From: Eumeta japonica
Taxonomy: Eukaryota; Arthropoda; Insecta; Lepidoptera; Psychidae
Direction: 5' to 3'
Assembly: GCA_005406025.1 (NCBI GenBank)
Contig: BGZK01000700.1
Location: 1-64,000 of the forward strand
Length of the DNA stretch: 64,000 nt
Part shown: piece after piece, positions 4,038 through 58,942 of the stretch
Layout of the letters: each line of letters starts with the position of its first letter
Position numbering within the stretch: the first letter of the stretch is position 1
The notes under the pieces: generated by a model
The model's database searches: none
What the model saw: only the letters and a program-made list of their open reading frames with translations
Told to the model about the DNA's origin: nothing
Made by a program: the position numbers and the translations under genes

Positions 4038-4100
<63 letters not shown>

Positions 4101-9823: not shown

Positions 9824-9839
9824 TATGTATGTATGTATG

Positions 9840-9883
<44 letters not shown>
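9824..9883 (+). repeat. Compound (TATG)n-(AT)n microsatellite
   Basis: About five TATG units pass directly into about 19 AT units. Confidence 0.95.
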
Positions 9884-35469: not shown

Positions 35470-35989
35470 CCAACAACTGTCGACTGTAAATATATTGAAA
35501 GGGTGCTCTGAATTTTACAAAGGAAATACGACAGACGAAAGATAGAGTTGACGTGCACTATACGATATCACATATCAATCCGTTGTGGCGGCTACCGTTT
35601 TGCATATTTATAGCACAAATATTGAATCTTTGGACTATAAAATATTCAATATTATAGATGTTTTGGGTTTTTTATAAGTTATAATTAACTTATTTATAAA
35701 GCTCAAGGCTTTAAGCACTATATTTAAATATTATTTAAGTATGCGTTTTTAGATTTTTGAGATCGAGATACAAGATTTTTATTCGTGCAACGAAACGAAA
35801 TGTTATTTCTATAGACAATGAGACTTAAATATTTACAATTACTAAACATAATCGTTCCAAAATAAATCCAATCGTCTACAAAAGAAATCCGCCGAAAATT
35901 CGAGACACTTTCGGAGAAAATTAGGTCCATGAACCGTCACTATTTCGTATAGATGTCGCCAATTTAAAAACGCGAAAACGCGCGCATAA

Positions 35990-36320
35990 AGATAAAAGTT
36001 GATTGCAGCGACATCCCGGAGACGGACGGGGCCCGCGCCCGGACGGCGCTCGCGAGTCGAGGTCGGGACAACAGAGAAGACTTTTGCTGGATGACGAAAT
36101 ACGAAATGTCGTTTTCCACGTTCGCCGCGGATCCACGCCGCCCCCGCGTAATCCTGGCGGCGCGGGCGCGCGCTCTCCTAACGATACATTTCCCGGATTG
36201 TCTCCATGAAGAGGCAATAATTTAAAGAGCGGCGTCATCCCGACGTAAAACTCCCGATTTCATCGCCGCCCCGCTCCCGCGGAGGACCTGGGCGCCCCGC
36301 CCATAAGTTCGTTCATATCT
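35990..36320. other. GC/CpG-rich island, candidate promoter or enhancer
   Basis: One of the most GC-rich non-repeat blocks. It is open in reading frames on both strands, which is expected from composition. No TATA/Inr/DPE set could be fixed. Regulatory role is inferred from composition only. Confidence 0.2.
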
Positions 36321-46200: not shown

Positions 46201-46305
46201 TTACGTCTTGAAAGGTACAAAGTGTAATTGGCGCCTTTGATTACTTTTCGAATTAAAACACTAATTAGGCGTATGAATTAAATGTGTTTTTTGTTTTTTT
46301 TTCAG
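43290..46305. other. Upstream flank of exon 1 with a strong GC island
   Basis: A CpG-rich island at 43300-43720 and a second patch at 44040-44300 lie 2-3 kb before the proposed first coding exon. They could hold the promoter or a 5'UTR exon, but no core promoter or donor stands out. The 45.3-kb RT-tail fragment sits between. The last ~45 nt carry the branch-like CTAAT (46261) and the T-rich acceptor. Confidence 0.35.
45335..45562 (-). mobile_element. Non-LTR retrotransposon 3' fragment (second RT-tail copy)
   Basis: The + strand block CACCGCCCATGGACACTCG plus AACGCCAAAGGAGTCACTAG is a sequence type I know from many lepidopteran genomes. On the minus strand it encodes a retroelement tail (ENALVTPLALRVSMGGGEHS). 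It lies about 0.75 kb upstream of the proposed exon 1. It is truncated at both ends and not functional. Confidence 0.5.
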
Positions 46306-46365
46306 ATGGGAAGCGCGCACAGACAGCGACGCTTCGCGTCGTTGCTGACGACCAGCGCTTTTATG
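46306..46365 (+). CDS. caps/trn: Predicted first coding exon of the LRR receptor (start codon and n-region of signal peptide)
   Basis: This is a 20-codon exon starting with ATG and encoding a short basic stretch followed by the start of a hydrophobic run (MGSAHRQRRF, then ASLLTTSAFM). A strong acceptor-like sequence lies directly before the ATG: a T-rich tract ending in TTTCAG at 46305, with a CTAAT branch-like site at 46261. The exon is followed by GTCAGT, a usable donor with an unusual C at +3. The exon length is divisible by three, so it joins in phase to the ATG ATG ACA at 55079. The joined N-terminus has a basic n-region, a ~22-residue hydrophobic core and an A-L-A cleavage site, a textbook secretory signal. 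Exon 2 alone lacks the n-region. This assignment is inferred from signal and phase, with no transcript evidence. A 5'UTR exon must lie further upstream if the acceptor is real. Confidence 0.55.
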
Positions 46366-46943
46366 GTCAGTACACCCGTTAAGGTCGAATTCGCTATCTC
46401 CCCGCTTGAGCATGACGTAATTATAATTCCCTGTAGGTGTATTCCTTTAACTGTGCATACTCATTCCAAGTTTTTCCAGAGCAATAATAATAATGTACCA
46501 ACGACTTCTATACTCGAAGACTTAAACGTAAAGACAGAAAATAAATGAATGAAAAAAATTGTATAATTCAGTGACTTTGCTCAAGGTGTACGGCGAAAAA
46601 ATTACAGCTGCGATAGCATTAAACGTTGCCACCAGCGAGCCGTTTATGGCACATCGCCTCTAGCGCTAGGTTTTTATTGTCAATATTAGTTTTGTCAATG
46701 TAATTATGCCATACTATACTAGAGTATCAGTATTGAGTTGTCACATAGACTAAGTAAATGATTTTAATTTCGCTTTAGTAACAACGTCACATTGTTCGTA
46801 CCATAATAATAGATAGTATCTTTATAACCATGACAAAATCTTTTTAATAAAAAATCAGATGTAAATTGTCTCTGAATTTACTTTCGTTAGTTCCGGTAGC
46901 GAATATACTTTGTGTCTATGGCAATATTTTCTATAATTTTGAA

Positions 46944-54900: not shown

Positions 54901-55078
54901 ACGCTTTAAGAAGTGCAGTCTTTTATGCTAGCTTTACATTTTAACTTACAACTATTTCTAATTGCTCTCTTTTTGTATTCATATATAAATTTAAATAAAT
55001 TTGTACCAAGATTTGCCTAAAACGTTCAATGCATTTATAGACCCAATAAGCTAACTGCAGGAATTTGTCACTTTTCAG

Positions 55079-56605
55079 ATGATGACACTATGCTTGGGTG
55101 CAGGCGCATTAGCGAACTGTCCCAGTGGCTGCAGTTGCAACGACGACACGCTGGTCGTAGTGTGCGAGGAGAGCCGTCTCGACGTGCTACCGATTGCTCT
55201 CAACCCTTCCATCCAGCGCCTCATCATTCGCAATAATAAGATCAAGACTATCGACAGTTCAATGCAGTTCTACGCCGACTTACAACATCTCGATCTTTCG
55301 CAGAACCATCTTGTCAGTATTCCCAACCGTAGTTTCGCATATCAAAGAAAATTGCAGGAACTGCATCTCAACCGAAACAAGATCTCAGCCGTCTCTAACG
55401 CCACCTTCCAGGGATTGACCGCTCTCACCGTCTTAAACTTGCGACGTAACTTCCTTGAAGAGCTGGGCCCTGGTGTGTTCGCCACTCTGCCACGCCTCGA
55501 AGAGTTAAACATCGGCCAGAACCGGATCTCGCGACTCGATCCTCGCGCTTTCGCTGGACTTTCTGCTCTGCGCATCCTATACATTGACGATAACCAGTTG
55601 AACGCTGTGCCTACCACTTCGTTTGCTCTACTCGGTTCGCTCGCGGAACTGCACGTCGGTCTCAACGCATTCTCATCGCTGTCAGATGACGCGTTTGCGG
55701 GCCTCAACCGGTTATCTGTACTCGATCTAAACGGCGCTGGCCTCTCCAACATAAGCGAGCATGCTTTTCGCGGCCTGCCTGGCCTGCGTAGTCTCAACTT
55801 ATTCGGCAACAGACTCGATACGGTGCCCACTCACCAGCTCGCCGTTCTCACTAGGCTCGAGGAATTGTATATCGGACAGAATGACTTTACAGTACTAGAG
55901 AAAAATTCATTTAATGGACTTAAGAATCTAAAATTTTTAGACGTGACTGGAGCTCTGCAATTGGAACGTATAGAAAAGGGAGCATTTGACGACAACGTAA
56001 ATCTAGAAACCGTCGGTTTCGCCAACAACAAGAAATTAACAGCAATCGAAGACGGCACATTTGTCGGTCTTCCTAAATTGAAACATGTCACTTTGAGAGA
56101 CAATGCGATCGTGACACTCGGCGAAACCGTATTCGTTGGTAAAGAATTGAAACAGGTGGATCTCAGTGACAATCCACTCGTGTGTGACTGCCGCCTATTA
56201 TGGCTACAGGAGCTACTCAGTGAGAAAAGCAATTTCAGTACGGCACAGTGCGCTGCACCCGATCATCTCAAGGACCGACCGCTACGCACGCTCGCCGCTG
56301 ATGAACTGGGTTGTGTGCTACACGACTCGCGTCAACAGACCATCATATGTATTGCATTAGCAGTAGCCGGCGCTGCACTGACCGTACTCTGTATTGTTCT
56401 TTACAAATATCGTAAAAATATGCGTGAAAAGCTCAAAGATTATAAATTGAACAAACGCGCTATACGTAAAGATCTCGAGTATCAAAAGACGTTCTCGACA
56501 GAAGAGGACTATATCGTACGCGGTATCCATCCCGGGCAATACCCAGCACCGCCGGCGCCGCCGCATGCGCCAGGCCTTCGGCCTATTCCCGTCACCGAGC
56601 TGTAG
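55079..56605 (+). CDS. caps/trn: LRR transmembrane receptor, tartan/capricious type (main coding exon)
   Basis: This is a single-pass cell-surface adhesion/recognition protein. Counting from the first codon, the segments are: end of a signal peptide (1-12), LRRNT cysteines (C14, C18, C20, C29), about 13 LRRs of ~24 residues (45-367), LRRCT cysteines (C369, C371, C391, C412), a membrane helix (about 421-442) and a cytoplasmic tail (443-508) with EYQKTF...EDY and a final TEL. N-glycosylation sequons are at N83, N107, N224 and N385. From memory of the family, the LRRNT region (LDVLPIALNPSIQRL) and the tail motif closely resemble Drosophila Tartan and Capricious, which act in axon targeting and compartment affinity. 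I cannot tell which of the two. The exon begins exactly at a CAG acceptor, so residue 1 is probably not the true start. The proposed exon 1 adds 20 residues, giving 528 in total. The TAG stop may be leaky. Confidence 0.93.
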   Translation: MMTLCLGAGALANCPSGCSCNDDTLVVVCEESRLDVLPIALNPSIQRLIIRNNKIKTIDSSMQFYADLQHLDLSQNHLVSIPNRSFAYQRKLQELHLNRNKISAVSNATFQGLTALTVLNLRRNFLEELGPGVFATLPRLEELNIGQNRISRLDPRAFAGLSALRILYIDDNQLNAVPTTSFALLGSLAELHVGLNAFSSLSDDAFAGLNRLSVLDLNGAGLSNISEHAFRGLPGLRSLNLFGNRLDTVPTHQLAVLTRLEELYIGQNDFTVLEKNSFNGLKNLKFLDVTGALQLERIEKGAFDDNVNLETVGFANNKKLTAIEDGTFVGLPKLKHVTLRDNAIVTLGETVFVGKELKQVDLSDNPLVCDCRLLWLQELLSEKSNFSTAQCAAPDHLKDRPLRTLAADELGCVLHDSRQQTIICIALAVAGAALTVLCIVLYKYRKNMREKLKDYKLNKRAIRKDLEYQKTFSTEEDYIVRGIHPGQYPAPPAPPHAPGLRPIPVTEL

Positions 56606-56682
56606 CTAGAGCTTTACGCCTCCCCGAGCGTATTCTTCATGTCGGGCGGTGGGTCAGCACGGCGCCCGCAACGCTCGGGGGG
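56603..56682 (+). promoter_or_regulatory. Candidate leaky stop: TAG-CTA context plus downstream hairpin
   Basis: The stop is TAG followed by CTAG, and CTA after a stop is a known readthrough-favouring context. Fifteen bases after the stop an arm at 56620-56631 (CTCCCCGAGCGT) pairs with 56671-56682 (ACGCTCGGGGGG). This gives 12 bp with one T-G wobble. Inside the 39-nt loop, CGGGCG (56643-56648) pairs with CGCCCG (56663-56668). Stable stem-loops just after the stop are reported for readthrough genes such as Drosophila headcase. The pairing is seen directly; its effect is inferred. Confidence 0.6.
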
Positions 56683-57058
56683 CGGCGGCACGGGTGGCAC
56701 TCTGCCGGCTAACGGGTTTACGTACCTGGGCGGAGAACGAGCGCTGCCCGCGCACACACTCAATAACGGTGCACCTGCGCATGCACATACACATCACCTA
56801 AACAACGGGTCATTGCGCTCATTACGTGACCTAAAAGCGCGCCACCACGTGCCGCACCCGGACAATTTCCAACGCAACGTAGATTCGCGCTTCTCTCGCA
56901 AGCAGGAGAACGGCTACTTACGGCCCTCGGAGACGACGCTGGGCCTGGAGCGGCGCGGCGCGGGCGGCGACTCCGACTACAACGAGCCCGAGTACTCGGT
57001 TATCGCGGAGGGGTGCTACACGCGCGACTGCCCGCATTCTAACACTTTCAACTGCTGA
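56606..57058 (+). CDS. In-frame C-terminal extension after the TAG stop (candidate readthrough region)
   Basis: Directly after the TAG at 56603-56605 the same frame stays open for 150 codons until TGA at 57056-57058. The peptide looks like a real cytoplasmic tail. It has a Gly/Arg-rich start, two LNNG motifs around a His/Ala segment, a basic middle (RDLKARHH, RFSRKQENGYLRP) and an acidic, tyrosine-rich end with DYNEPEYSVI and several Cys near the C-terminus. YSVI fits the YxxPhi sorting pattern. Base composition is as GC-rich as the upstream exon and falls sharply after the TGA. An internal ATG at 56639 would give 139 residues, but it would not be expected to initiate downstream of a 500-codon ORF. 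Translation by readthrough is the simplest explanation. A recent nonsense change or an assembly error are the alternatives. Confidence 0.7.
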   Translation, partial: LELYASPSVFFMSGGGSARRPQRSGGGGTGGTLPANGFTYLGGERALPAHTLNNGAPAHAHTHHLNNGSLRSLRDLKARHHVPHPDNFQRNVDSRFSRKQENGYLRPSETTLGLERRGAGGDSDYNEPEYSVIAEGCYTRDCPHSNTFNC

Positions 57059-58942
57059 GCGTAACGGACTCTAAATATTTTGTGATCTTGCAATTTTAGC
57101 AATAATTCTTCATTCCATAAGTCGCGTAGGTAGTGGCACGCGGCCGAGGACGCTGGTGCGCCGGCCGCTCGAGATCAATTTCGAAAGTACTTTATTTGTA
57201 AATTAGGTAGTGGCGTACGTTTCAACGTGAGTTGGTGGAGCGTTCTTTTTATGAAAGTGAAACTTTCATAGGAGCGGCGCACGGTCGATGTACAGACTAG
57301 TCGTGTCGAGGAGGCCCGGTCGGTTCTCCTTTCCTTGAATTTGTACAAAAACCATTCCATGAAATCTTTTAATATCTAATATTTTATTTATAAGCGTGCG
57401 TTAAATAAGACACCAATATGAAAATATTAGATAAATGAATGTAAATATATTTATACATATATTGATAAATATTTATAAAATTTCATACGATCTTGCTCTT
57501 CTAATATTGTCATACGATAATTTAGAATTTCTGATATTTTATTGTTTATAACGTCGACTGATAGGAACGTGTTCTGCATTTCACGACTTGAAATAGTTCA
57601 ATGTCCACTGTATATTTATGGCGCACTAAACATTTCTTGTATATTATAATATACTTAACACGTATATTTAAGAATATGGAGCTTGTGAAATGTTTTTTAG
57701 TGCAAAAAAATAAATAAGTAAATAAAAGCAATCAATTGCAAGCTCCATTTTCTAACAAACATTTTGTACTGCTCAAATTTTATGAAATCATTGCGACTCC
57801 AGCACACTTCTTTTACGATAAAACACTCTTGTATTGTGATGAGATAGGTCTACAGTATTTTTATTTCAATTTTTATGCTACATCCAATGATAAATATCAA
57901 GTGTCTCAATTCTTTAAAGCCGTTTGGCGTTTTCATGATACAAGTTTTTACGTACTGTAACAACATTGCTGAGATAAAACCAAACGTATTTCTTTGCACA
58001 GTCTGTTGATATTTGTACATAATGGGAAAACGAAGACTTCCTTACTGAGGCATTAAGCGCGATGTCAAGTGTTAGTGCCTAGAAAATGCCTGAATAAAGT
58101 ATACAAGGAATACTTAATACATATGATGAAAATGTGATTAGTATGTACACATCCGAGGTTATGAATAGCTCATCAGTCATTCTCTACTTTATTGTAGTTA
58201 TTACCTACATACGAACTCGATAAATATAAAGTACATCAAAAATCTTACCTTTGGTTTCATTTGTTAACTTTACAAGCACCTATCGATATACAATTTTATT
58301 AAAATGGAAATTAAACTCATTTATTATTTGGATGTAATTTAATTTTTTTAATTTTTTTGTGTACTGTATCCATTGATACTAGACACCTATGTACCTATTT
58401 AAATTTTTTTCTCCTAATCGTTTTATACTGCATGGAATAAAAATCTGAAAGGAGATCCGAGAAAAAAATTAATCTTAAAATTTCAGCTGAAGGCAGATTA
58501 AGGTTAGAGAAATATATTAGACAAGAGGATAAGCAGGAAAGGTAAATTAGGATCAGGTATATATAGACAGAGGAGACAGATGCCAATCGGCCAACGGTTT
58601 TCGGTTCCTACGAGGGAAACAGGTGATTAATTAAAATGAATAAGTACAAACATTTTAAGAATTGATCTTGATTTAGCTACCTGAGCGTGATATTATCATT
58701 TACATAAAGCCAGTAAAATGTTGACAATCAGGAAACGAACTGCTGTCGTTTAGAACTGAGACTCTGTGGAATTTTTGGGGTTATGACTTACATCAATTCA
58801 ATGACTTTTTATAAATTCCTTGATTTACACATTGTAATTCCTTAATTCATTCTCTGGATGGCGCATCACCAGATCACACCAACCAATTTCAAGCTGTAAA
58901 CCAGAGAATCCCGAATGTGAAAAATGCAAATAGTAACTATCT
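57059..58942 (+). other. 3'UTR and downstream flank of the LRR receptor gene
   Basis: The sequence turns AT-rich after the distal TGA. Candidate AATAAA signals are at 57709-57714, 57721-57726 and 58093-58098; which one is used cannot be decided here. The first kilobase holds a Pumilio-type TGTAAATA (57440-57447), a K-box-like TGTGAT (near 57080), ATTTA-rich stretches around 57380-57480 and a 9-bp hairpin at 57250-57270. If the proximal TAG is the usual stop, the readthrough ORF would also be 3'UTR. Nothing else is recognisable before the mariner at 58943. Confidence 0.45.

Follow-up and report, generated by a model that had tools for sequence, protein, structure and literature searches.

Proposed stop-codon readthrough in a capricious/tartan-type receptor gene of the moth Eumeta japonica

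The receptor gene and its downstream open frame

We analyzed a stretch of 64,000 nucleotides (nt) from the moth Eumeta japonica (assembly GCA_005406025.1, contig BGZK01000700.1, positions 1-64,000, forward strand; this whole stretch is called the window) which carries a leucine-rich repeat (LRR) receptor gene whose reading frame continues for a long distance beyond its stop codon. An earlier note made from the letters of this DNA had proposed programmed readthrough of that stop, and our analysis leads us to consider this the probable explanation. The features needed for the argument, all on the plus strand, are as follows.

46306-46365, plus strand: probable coding exon 1 (MGSAHRQRRFASLLTTSAFM), from a profile hit and an in-frame join, with predicted splicing
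55079-56602, plus strand: receptor exon 2 with LRR ectodomain, LRRCT, transmembrane segment and short cytoplasmic tail, from the open frame, Pfam and the end shared by relatives
56339-56404, plus strand: transmembrane segment TIICIALAVAGAALTVLCIVLY, read by eye from the translation
56483-56491, plus strand: juxtamembrane QKT motif, described in a passage of PMC2225406 as common to caps, trn and Lrrn1
56516-56605, plus strand: would-be 90-nt GT-AG intron of a rival explanation, its acceptor AG inside the stop codon, from the junction I/LELYAS in relatives P0028-P0032
56591-56602, plus strand: VTEL, C-terminus of the short form, which fits the PDZ-ligand consensus S/T-x-V/I/L as given in PMC2225406
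56603-56605, plus strand: TAG stop, the proposed readthrough site, from the sequence
56606-56609, plus strand: CTAG directly 3' of the stop, a readthrough-type context, after the CUAG motif described in PMC4132726
56606-57058, plus strand: proposed readthrough extension with 150 sense codons (56606-57055) followed by TGA (57056-57058), from the frame and relatives
56617-56684, plus strand: predicted stem-loop starting 11 nt after the stop, from folding energy, controls and pair probabilities
56639-56641, plus strand: first ATG of the extension, the start of most isolated extension proteins, from those relatives
56984-57004, plus strand: EPEYSVI, a YxxPhi-type tyrosine motif, with EPEYS.I in 23 of 25 isolated extension proteins when the window's own is counted

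The receptor open reading frame (55079-56605, including exon 2) encodes 508 amino acids and terminates at the TAG; the earlier note had placed this stop and the 150 codons that stay open behind it exactly. Exon 1 was the best hit (E 0.0015) when a profile from the N-termini of 36 relatives was run with hmmsearch against the plus-strand open segments of 1-55100. It sits 8.7 kb upstream of exon 2, its donor reads ATG/GTCAGT at 46366, and it joins position 55079 in frame to give a receptor of 528 residues up to the TAG and of 679 residues through it, so that the two sizes calculated previously hold with the exon found here. A pyrimidine tract and CAG precede exon 1 (46297-46365), which makes a further upstream exon likely, either 5' untranslated or encoding a longer N-terminus. 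Some relatives have tens of additional N-terminal residues.

Pfam matches within the receptor were LRR_8 (2.7e-64), LRR_4 and LRRCT, and the match table contained no Ig family. The protein thus has an LRR ectodomain with LRRCT, lacks an Ig domain and carries one transmembrane segment, the latter judged by eye. A Pfam search with the extension gave no match. The NCBIfam search returned distant LRR matches only, far under the cut-offs, and the best 60 of 264 matches from a PDB sequence search were generic LRR proteins.

A tartan/capricious-type identity had been suggested before, and the architecture together with two further observations agrees with it. One relative, P0055, is named capricious by its source, while none of the receptor matches listed is named as fly caps or trn. 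Further, the juxtamembrane QKT motif is present in the window. The five-residue stretch that contains it (56483-56497) reads QKTFS in 6 of 40 aligned rows (the window, P0033, P0053, P0059, P0063 and P0064) and HKPIS in the other 34. In flies, a caps hypomorph was reported as T501I, a residue conserved in caps, trn and Lrrn1 according to the same passage of PMC2225406; we take T501 to be the threonine of the QKT motif. Given the HKPIS rows, many Lepidoptera seem to have changed a residue that is important in Drosophila. Together, the QKT motif and the source name fit a lepidopteran receptor of the capricious/tartan type. An orthologue of 2mit, a fly LRR receptor for which one source proposes a 13-residue readthrough (passage in PMC3786989), was also considered and set aside: fly 2mit was compared by description, and caps/trn agrees better with both the QKT motif and the name capricious.

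Conservation of the extension and of the receptor end

By its length, the open frame behind the stop is not compelling. A first-order chain that takes its composition from the extension itself leaves 150 codons open with a probability of 0.034; taking it from 55000-58000 lowers this value to 0.00085, and taking it from the 3' flank (57059-57558) to 5e-5. In the remaining forward frames the extension meets 4 stops each, and its reverse frames contain 8, 5 and 7 stops. Open length and codon usage are weak evidence, and codon usage is uninformative as to coding. The earlier note had called a chance extension unlikely while conceding that GC-rich sequence weakens the argument; the concession was justified, as length alone leaves room for chance, and the extension stands above chance because it is conserved in relatives. 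A purely fortuitous open frame can be rejected on that ground. The tail had also been described as ordered, which AlphaFold2 contradicts: the extension is predicted to be disordered, with a mean predicted local distance difference test score of 53.5 and no residue reaching 70.

A sequence search with the extension returned 24 proteins, the window's own included, and a profile search (7988 candidates scored) added one more. At least 24 relatives besides the window's own therefore contain the extension as an isolated protein, and 11 of them come from named Lepidoptera (Chilo, Dendrolimus, Operophtera, Danaus, Leptosia, Pieris, Tuta, Papilio, Heliothis, Leptidea and Parnassius). Across all 25 isolated rows, including the window's, the motif LNNGAPA is present and the C-terminus reads [ND]TF[ND]C. 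BLAST identity between the extension and 23 relatives was 53-69%. Over aligned columns with gaps excluded, the window and six relatives containing both parts shared 70-76% identity in the extension, 76-80% in the ectodomain and 76-92% in the cytoplasmic part before the stop. The Eumeta japonica genome (701.7 Mb) yielded a single match to the extension, the window's own. DNA of the relatives was sought in viral contigs by pattern and alignment and in genome contigs by alignment, and none was found in either. Based on these comparisons, the extension is supported as a conserved lepidopteran protein sequence.

The receptor end is conserved as well. Among 39 receptor matches to the C-terminal half (P0026-P0064; 7994 candidates scored), 31 end exactly at VTEL, a comparison of proteins in which the identity of the codon is not visible. 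At that level the stop is kept in relatives, and a sense codon at this position in all others, which the earlier note had raised as a possibility, does not describe the data. Seven matches continue to the end of the extension, and one, P0034 from Phthorimaea operculella, joins a later part of it, after which the frame is lost. All 13 receptor matches derived from lgn alone, a source which we take to be assembled public read sets, end at the stop, and lgn is among the sources of none of the seven fused models.

In six cases a receptor ending in VTEL and an isolated extension protein have longest source contigs of equal length (P0033/P0010, P0052/P0004, P0054/P0005, P0056/P0014 from Danaus, P0051/P0016 from Pieris brassicae, and P0046/P0017 from Tuta, which also share a gene name). 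This suggests that both lie on the same contig. In three of the six pairs the contig measures just 3-5 kb, and P0033 and P0052 start with residues like those of exon 1, which in the window is 8.7 kb away from exon 2. Such short contigs may well be cDNA, which would place receptor, stop and extension on one mRNA.

Annotation of the region is inconsistent. The Danaus gene appears in three ways: fused, with only VTEL and the stop skipped (P0026); as a receptor that ends at the stop (P0056); and with the extension annotated as a protein of its own (P0014). For several Lepidoptera, public records file the extension (56639-57058) as a separate hypothetical, uncharacterized or unnamed protein (P0003, P0007, P0014, P0015, P0016, P0017, P0019, P0023 and P0024). 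Depending on the annotation, the same 140-odd residues thus count as a hypothetical protein of their own, form a spliced tail or are missing altogether, which is a practical difficulty in itself.

RNA signals and competing explanations

The stop lies in the context UAG-CUAG, with CUAGAG at positions +4 to +9; the context TAG CTA pointed out earlier is therefore part of a complete CTAG directly after the stop. CUAG is the motif of efficient readthrough at mammalian UGA codons, as described in PMC4132726. The predicted stem-loop at 56617-56684 consists of a 14-bp outer stem with one bulge and an inner stem above it. The folding energy was -48.9 kcal/mol for 81 nt (z-score -4.5), with none of 200 shuffles as low, and a 100-nt window from the stop gave a z-score of -3.4. 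When synonymous codons were exchanged with the peptide kept, 0, 2 or 5 of 1000 controls were as stable, depending on the codon model. When 83 windows were slid along the sequence, with starts between 55079 and about 57300, the most negative z-score fell on one beginning inside the stem-loop, and upstream and downstream windows folded no better than shuffles (z-scores 0.93 and 0.09). In a 501-nt context the outer-stem pairs had probabilities of 0.97-1.00, and most of the stem persists without the first bases of the extension. Thus, a very stable stem-loop just 3' of the stop is predicted, beyond what synonymous codon choice would lead one to expect. As for the type of stop, a passage in PMC5100048 states that TAG is commoner in Drosophila among readthrough candidates with predicted structures, the difference not being significant in Anopheles.

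The conserved extension, the shared receptor end, the stem-loop and the curated readthrough of Drosophila caps (see below) together support the interpretation of the earlier note, and we consider it likely that the UAG is a programmed readthrough site in a moth receptor of the caps/trn type. We infer translation past the stop, its fraction, the inserted residue and the change of cytoplasmic partners as follows. Most ribosomes would stop at the UAG and produce the 528-residue receptor, whose VTEL end could act as a PDZ ligand as judged by its consensus fit. Some ribosomes, helped by the CUAG context and the stem-loop, would decode the UAG and produce the 679-residue receptor; the residue inserted would probably be glutamine, as it is in Drosophila dfr. 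This long form would bury VTEL and gain a disordered 150-residue tail with a YxxPhi motif and the conserved NTFNC end. Such an exchange of tails would swap cytoplasmic partners and perhaps add endocytic sorting.

Several observations weigh against this interpretation. Synonymous codon usage in the extension, whose composition had previously been called coding-like, does not resemble that of the receptor (mean log-ratio -0.01, compared with 0.08 in the receptor and -0.05/-0.16 in the wrong frames). None of the extension matches listed is named from outside Lepidoptera, many of them bearing no name. A 101-nt fold without the outer 3' arm of the stem-loop had a z-score of only 0.16. Results reported in parts of the literature point the same way: changing the UGA of OPRL1 to UAG reduced readthrough about 3-fold in the CUAG context and two mammalian candidates that have RNA structures were read through only to a small extent (PMC4132726), and several Drosophila stem-loop candidates were read through poorly in yeast (PMC5100048). 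Finally, some relatives are annotated with a junction that removes the stop. Five cluster representatives, P0028-P0032 (Ostrinia furnacalis, Colias croceus, Vanessa tameamea, Papilio polytes and P0031), contain I/LELYAS; their clusters comprise 9+5+18+12+4 = 48 member sequences, with the junction read in the representatives only. P0034 shares the donor position and joins a later point of the extension.

These junctions suggest a facultative small GT-AG intron whose acceptor is the AG of the TAG, so that splicing would connect ...EEDYI to LELYAS and retention would give the short form. The window allows this junction in frame, from the GT of the valine codon in VRG to the TAG. The would-be intron measures 90 nt in the window. 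Among the 31 relatives with a VTEL end it ranges from 45 to 120 nt, and 17 of them have 84 nt. Splicing is the main competing account and a serious one, though splicing alone is unlikely in our view. The stop-removing junction, which had been named in advance as a finding that would refute readthrough, does exist in the five annotated cluster representatives; it is absent from the 13 lgn-only matches, all of which end at VTEL, and none of the seven models reaching the end of the extension has an lgn source. The model P0026 leaves out VTEL and the stop only, which as an intron would be 15 nt, and P0027 has its junction at another place; this suggests joins forced by gene finders. Judged by eye against the splice-site consensus, both sites look weak: the donor reads ATC/GTACGC, and the acceptor region GTCACCGAGCTGTAG contains few pyrimidines. 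Further, the valine codon that would supply the GT is missing in P0053 and P0059, and in P0063 and P0064 the interval comes to just 45 nt, which is little for an intron; these four, compared in their receptor part, could hardly use it. An intron would also leave the stem-loop and the annotation of Drosophila caps unexplained.

Readthrough and splicing could also coexist, with the TAG as a dual switch that acts as a leaky stop and also supplies the splice acceptor for a facultative intron. The would-be intron interval spans 69-120 nt in 29 of 31 relatives. A long receptor would then arise by readthrough, which would keep the proline-rich stretch VRGIHP...VTEL plus one recoded residue, or by splicing, which would omit this stretch, and three cytoplasmic tails would result. 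We put this combination forward as a tentative and rather unlikely addition.

Far less probable is an arrangement of two cistrons in which the extension is started separately by reinitiation at the ATG at 56639. Of the isolated extension proteins, 24 of 25 begin with methionine (P0024 and P0025 at a later one), and annotations from named species list the piece as a protein of its own. The methionine may merely be a start forced by gene callers after the stop, and the 11 residues between the stop and the first methionine (LELYASPSVFF) are identical in six of the seven fused models, the seventh skipping them. A downstream start doesn't predict such identity, though the RNA stem could partly constrain these residues. 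With T at both -3 and +4, the ATG lies in a poor Kozak context, and reinitiation after an open reading frame of 528 codons is rare.

A-to-I editing of the UAG to UGG, read as tryptophan, would be favored by the strong RNA duplex predicted nearby. UAG is a favored triplet of adenosine deaminases acting on RNA (ADAR), and genes of this family function in neurons. Folding leaves the adenine of the stop unpaired, however (predicted pairing probability 0.06 in the 501-nt context), and 31 of 39 receptor matches, including every lgn-only one, end at the stop; we regard editing as very improbable. A recent nonsense mutation, an allele or an assembly error in the Eumeta japonica genome would likewise produce a conserved coding frame behind a stop. 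This account is contradicted by the end residue shared among those 31 matches and by the 24 relatives in which the extension forms an open frame of its own, and we give it almost no credence.

Elsewhere in the window, a minus-strand open frame of 105 amino acids rich in proline, glycine and arginine (35921-36238) had no Pfam match at E 0.01 and may belong to a mobile element or represent another exon. Two microsatellites were observed, a perfect CT dinucleotide array at 4041-4097 (28.5 copies) and a TATA array at 9824-9883 (15 copies). Neither Rfam at the gathering threshold nor a tRNA search gave a useful match in the window.

Comparison with known readthrough systems

If readthrough is confirmed, it would be common to caps-type receptors of flies and moths and provide a good test of its function in a neural recognition receptor. 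The gene offers a clean comparison, the conserved VTEL end on one side and the disordered, conserved tail on the other, and the stem-loop predicted in it is well delimited.

The closest parallel is Drosophila melanogaster caps. In a curated passage of PMC4528330, FlyBase curators list caps as a readthrough gene encoding a leucine-rich, trn-like transmembrane protein whose 240-amino-acid extension lengthens the similarity to Trn. Fly and moth genes share a caps/trn-type LRR transmembrane receptor and a long in-frame extension with a disordered pattern. They differ in the length of the extension (240 amino acids in the fly, 150 in the moth); the two were compared by description, and readthrough in the fly gene is documented by this one passage, which contains no translation assay. 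According to the same passage, the caps extension resembles the unextended tail of the related receptor Trn, which carries that tail without readthrough. The names caps and capricious are absent from the main text of Dunn 2013 (PMC3840789) and of Jungreis 2016 (PMC5100048), the supplementary lists lying outside this statement. Our literature search covered readthrough together with capricious/tartan or Lepidoptera, and within it we found no report of a lepidopteran case.

Drosophila dfr offers a mechanistic likeness. The parts of PMC8417969 and PMC13170385 that we draw on describe a UAG followed by C, a stem-loop whose stability affects the rate of readthrough, and decoding of the UAG as glutamine. 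Common to dfr and the moth gene are UAG-C, a stem-loop shortly downstream and a disordered, conserved extension. In contrast, dfr is a transcription factor, its readthrough was demonstrated by peptides, antibodies and reporters, and its positions +4 to +9 read CAAUCA compared with CUAGAG in the moth. Mammalian UGA-CUAG genes such as OPRL1 share the CUAG, while their stop is UGA and that of the moth is the UAG reported to be about 3-fold weaker (passage in PMC4132726). Drosophila glass, as described in part of PMC6655844, combines a proposed readthrough extension with an intron whose retention meets a stop; there, the intron and the readthrough stop are separate, whereas the rival intron in the moth ends in the stop itself. 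Readthrough of this kind is thus already known, and the moth locus contributes a further member, its stem-loop and the overlap between the stop and a would-be splice acceptor.

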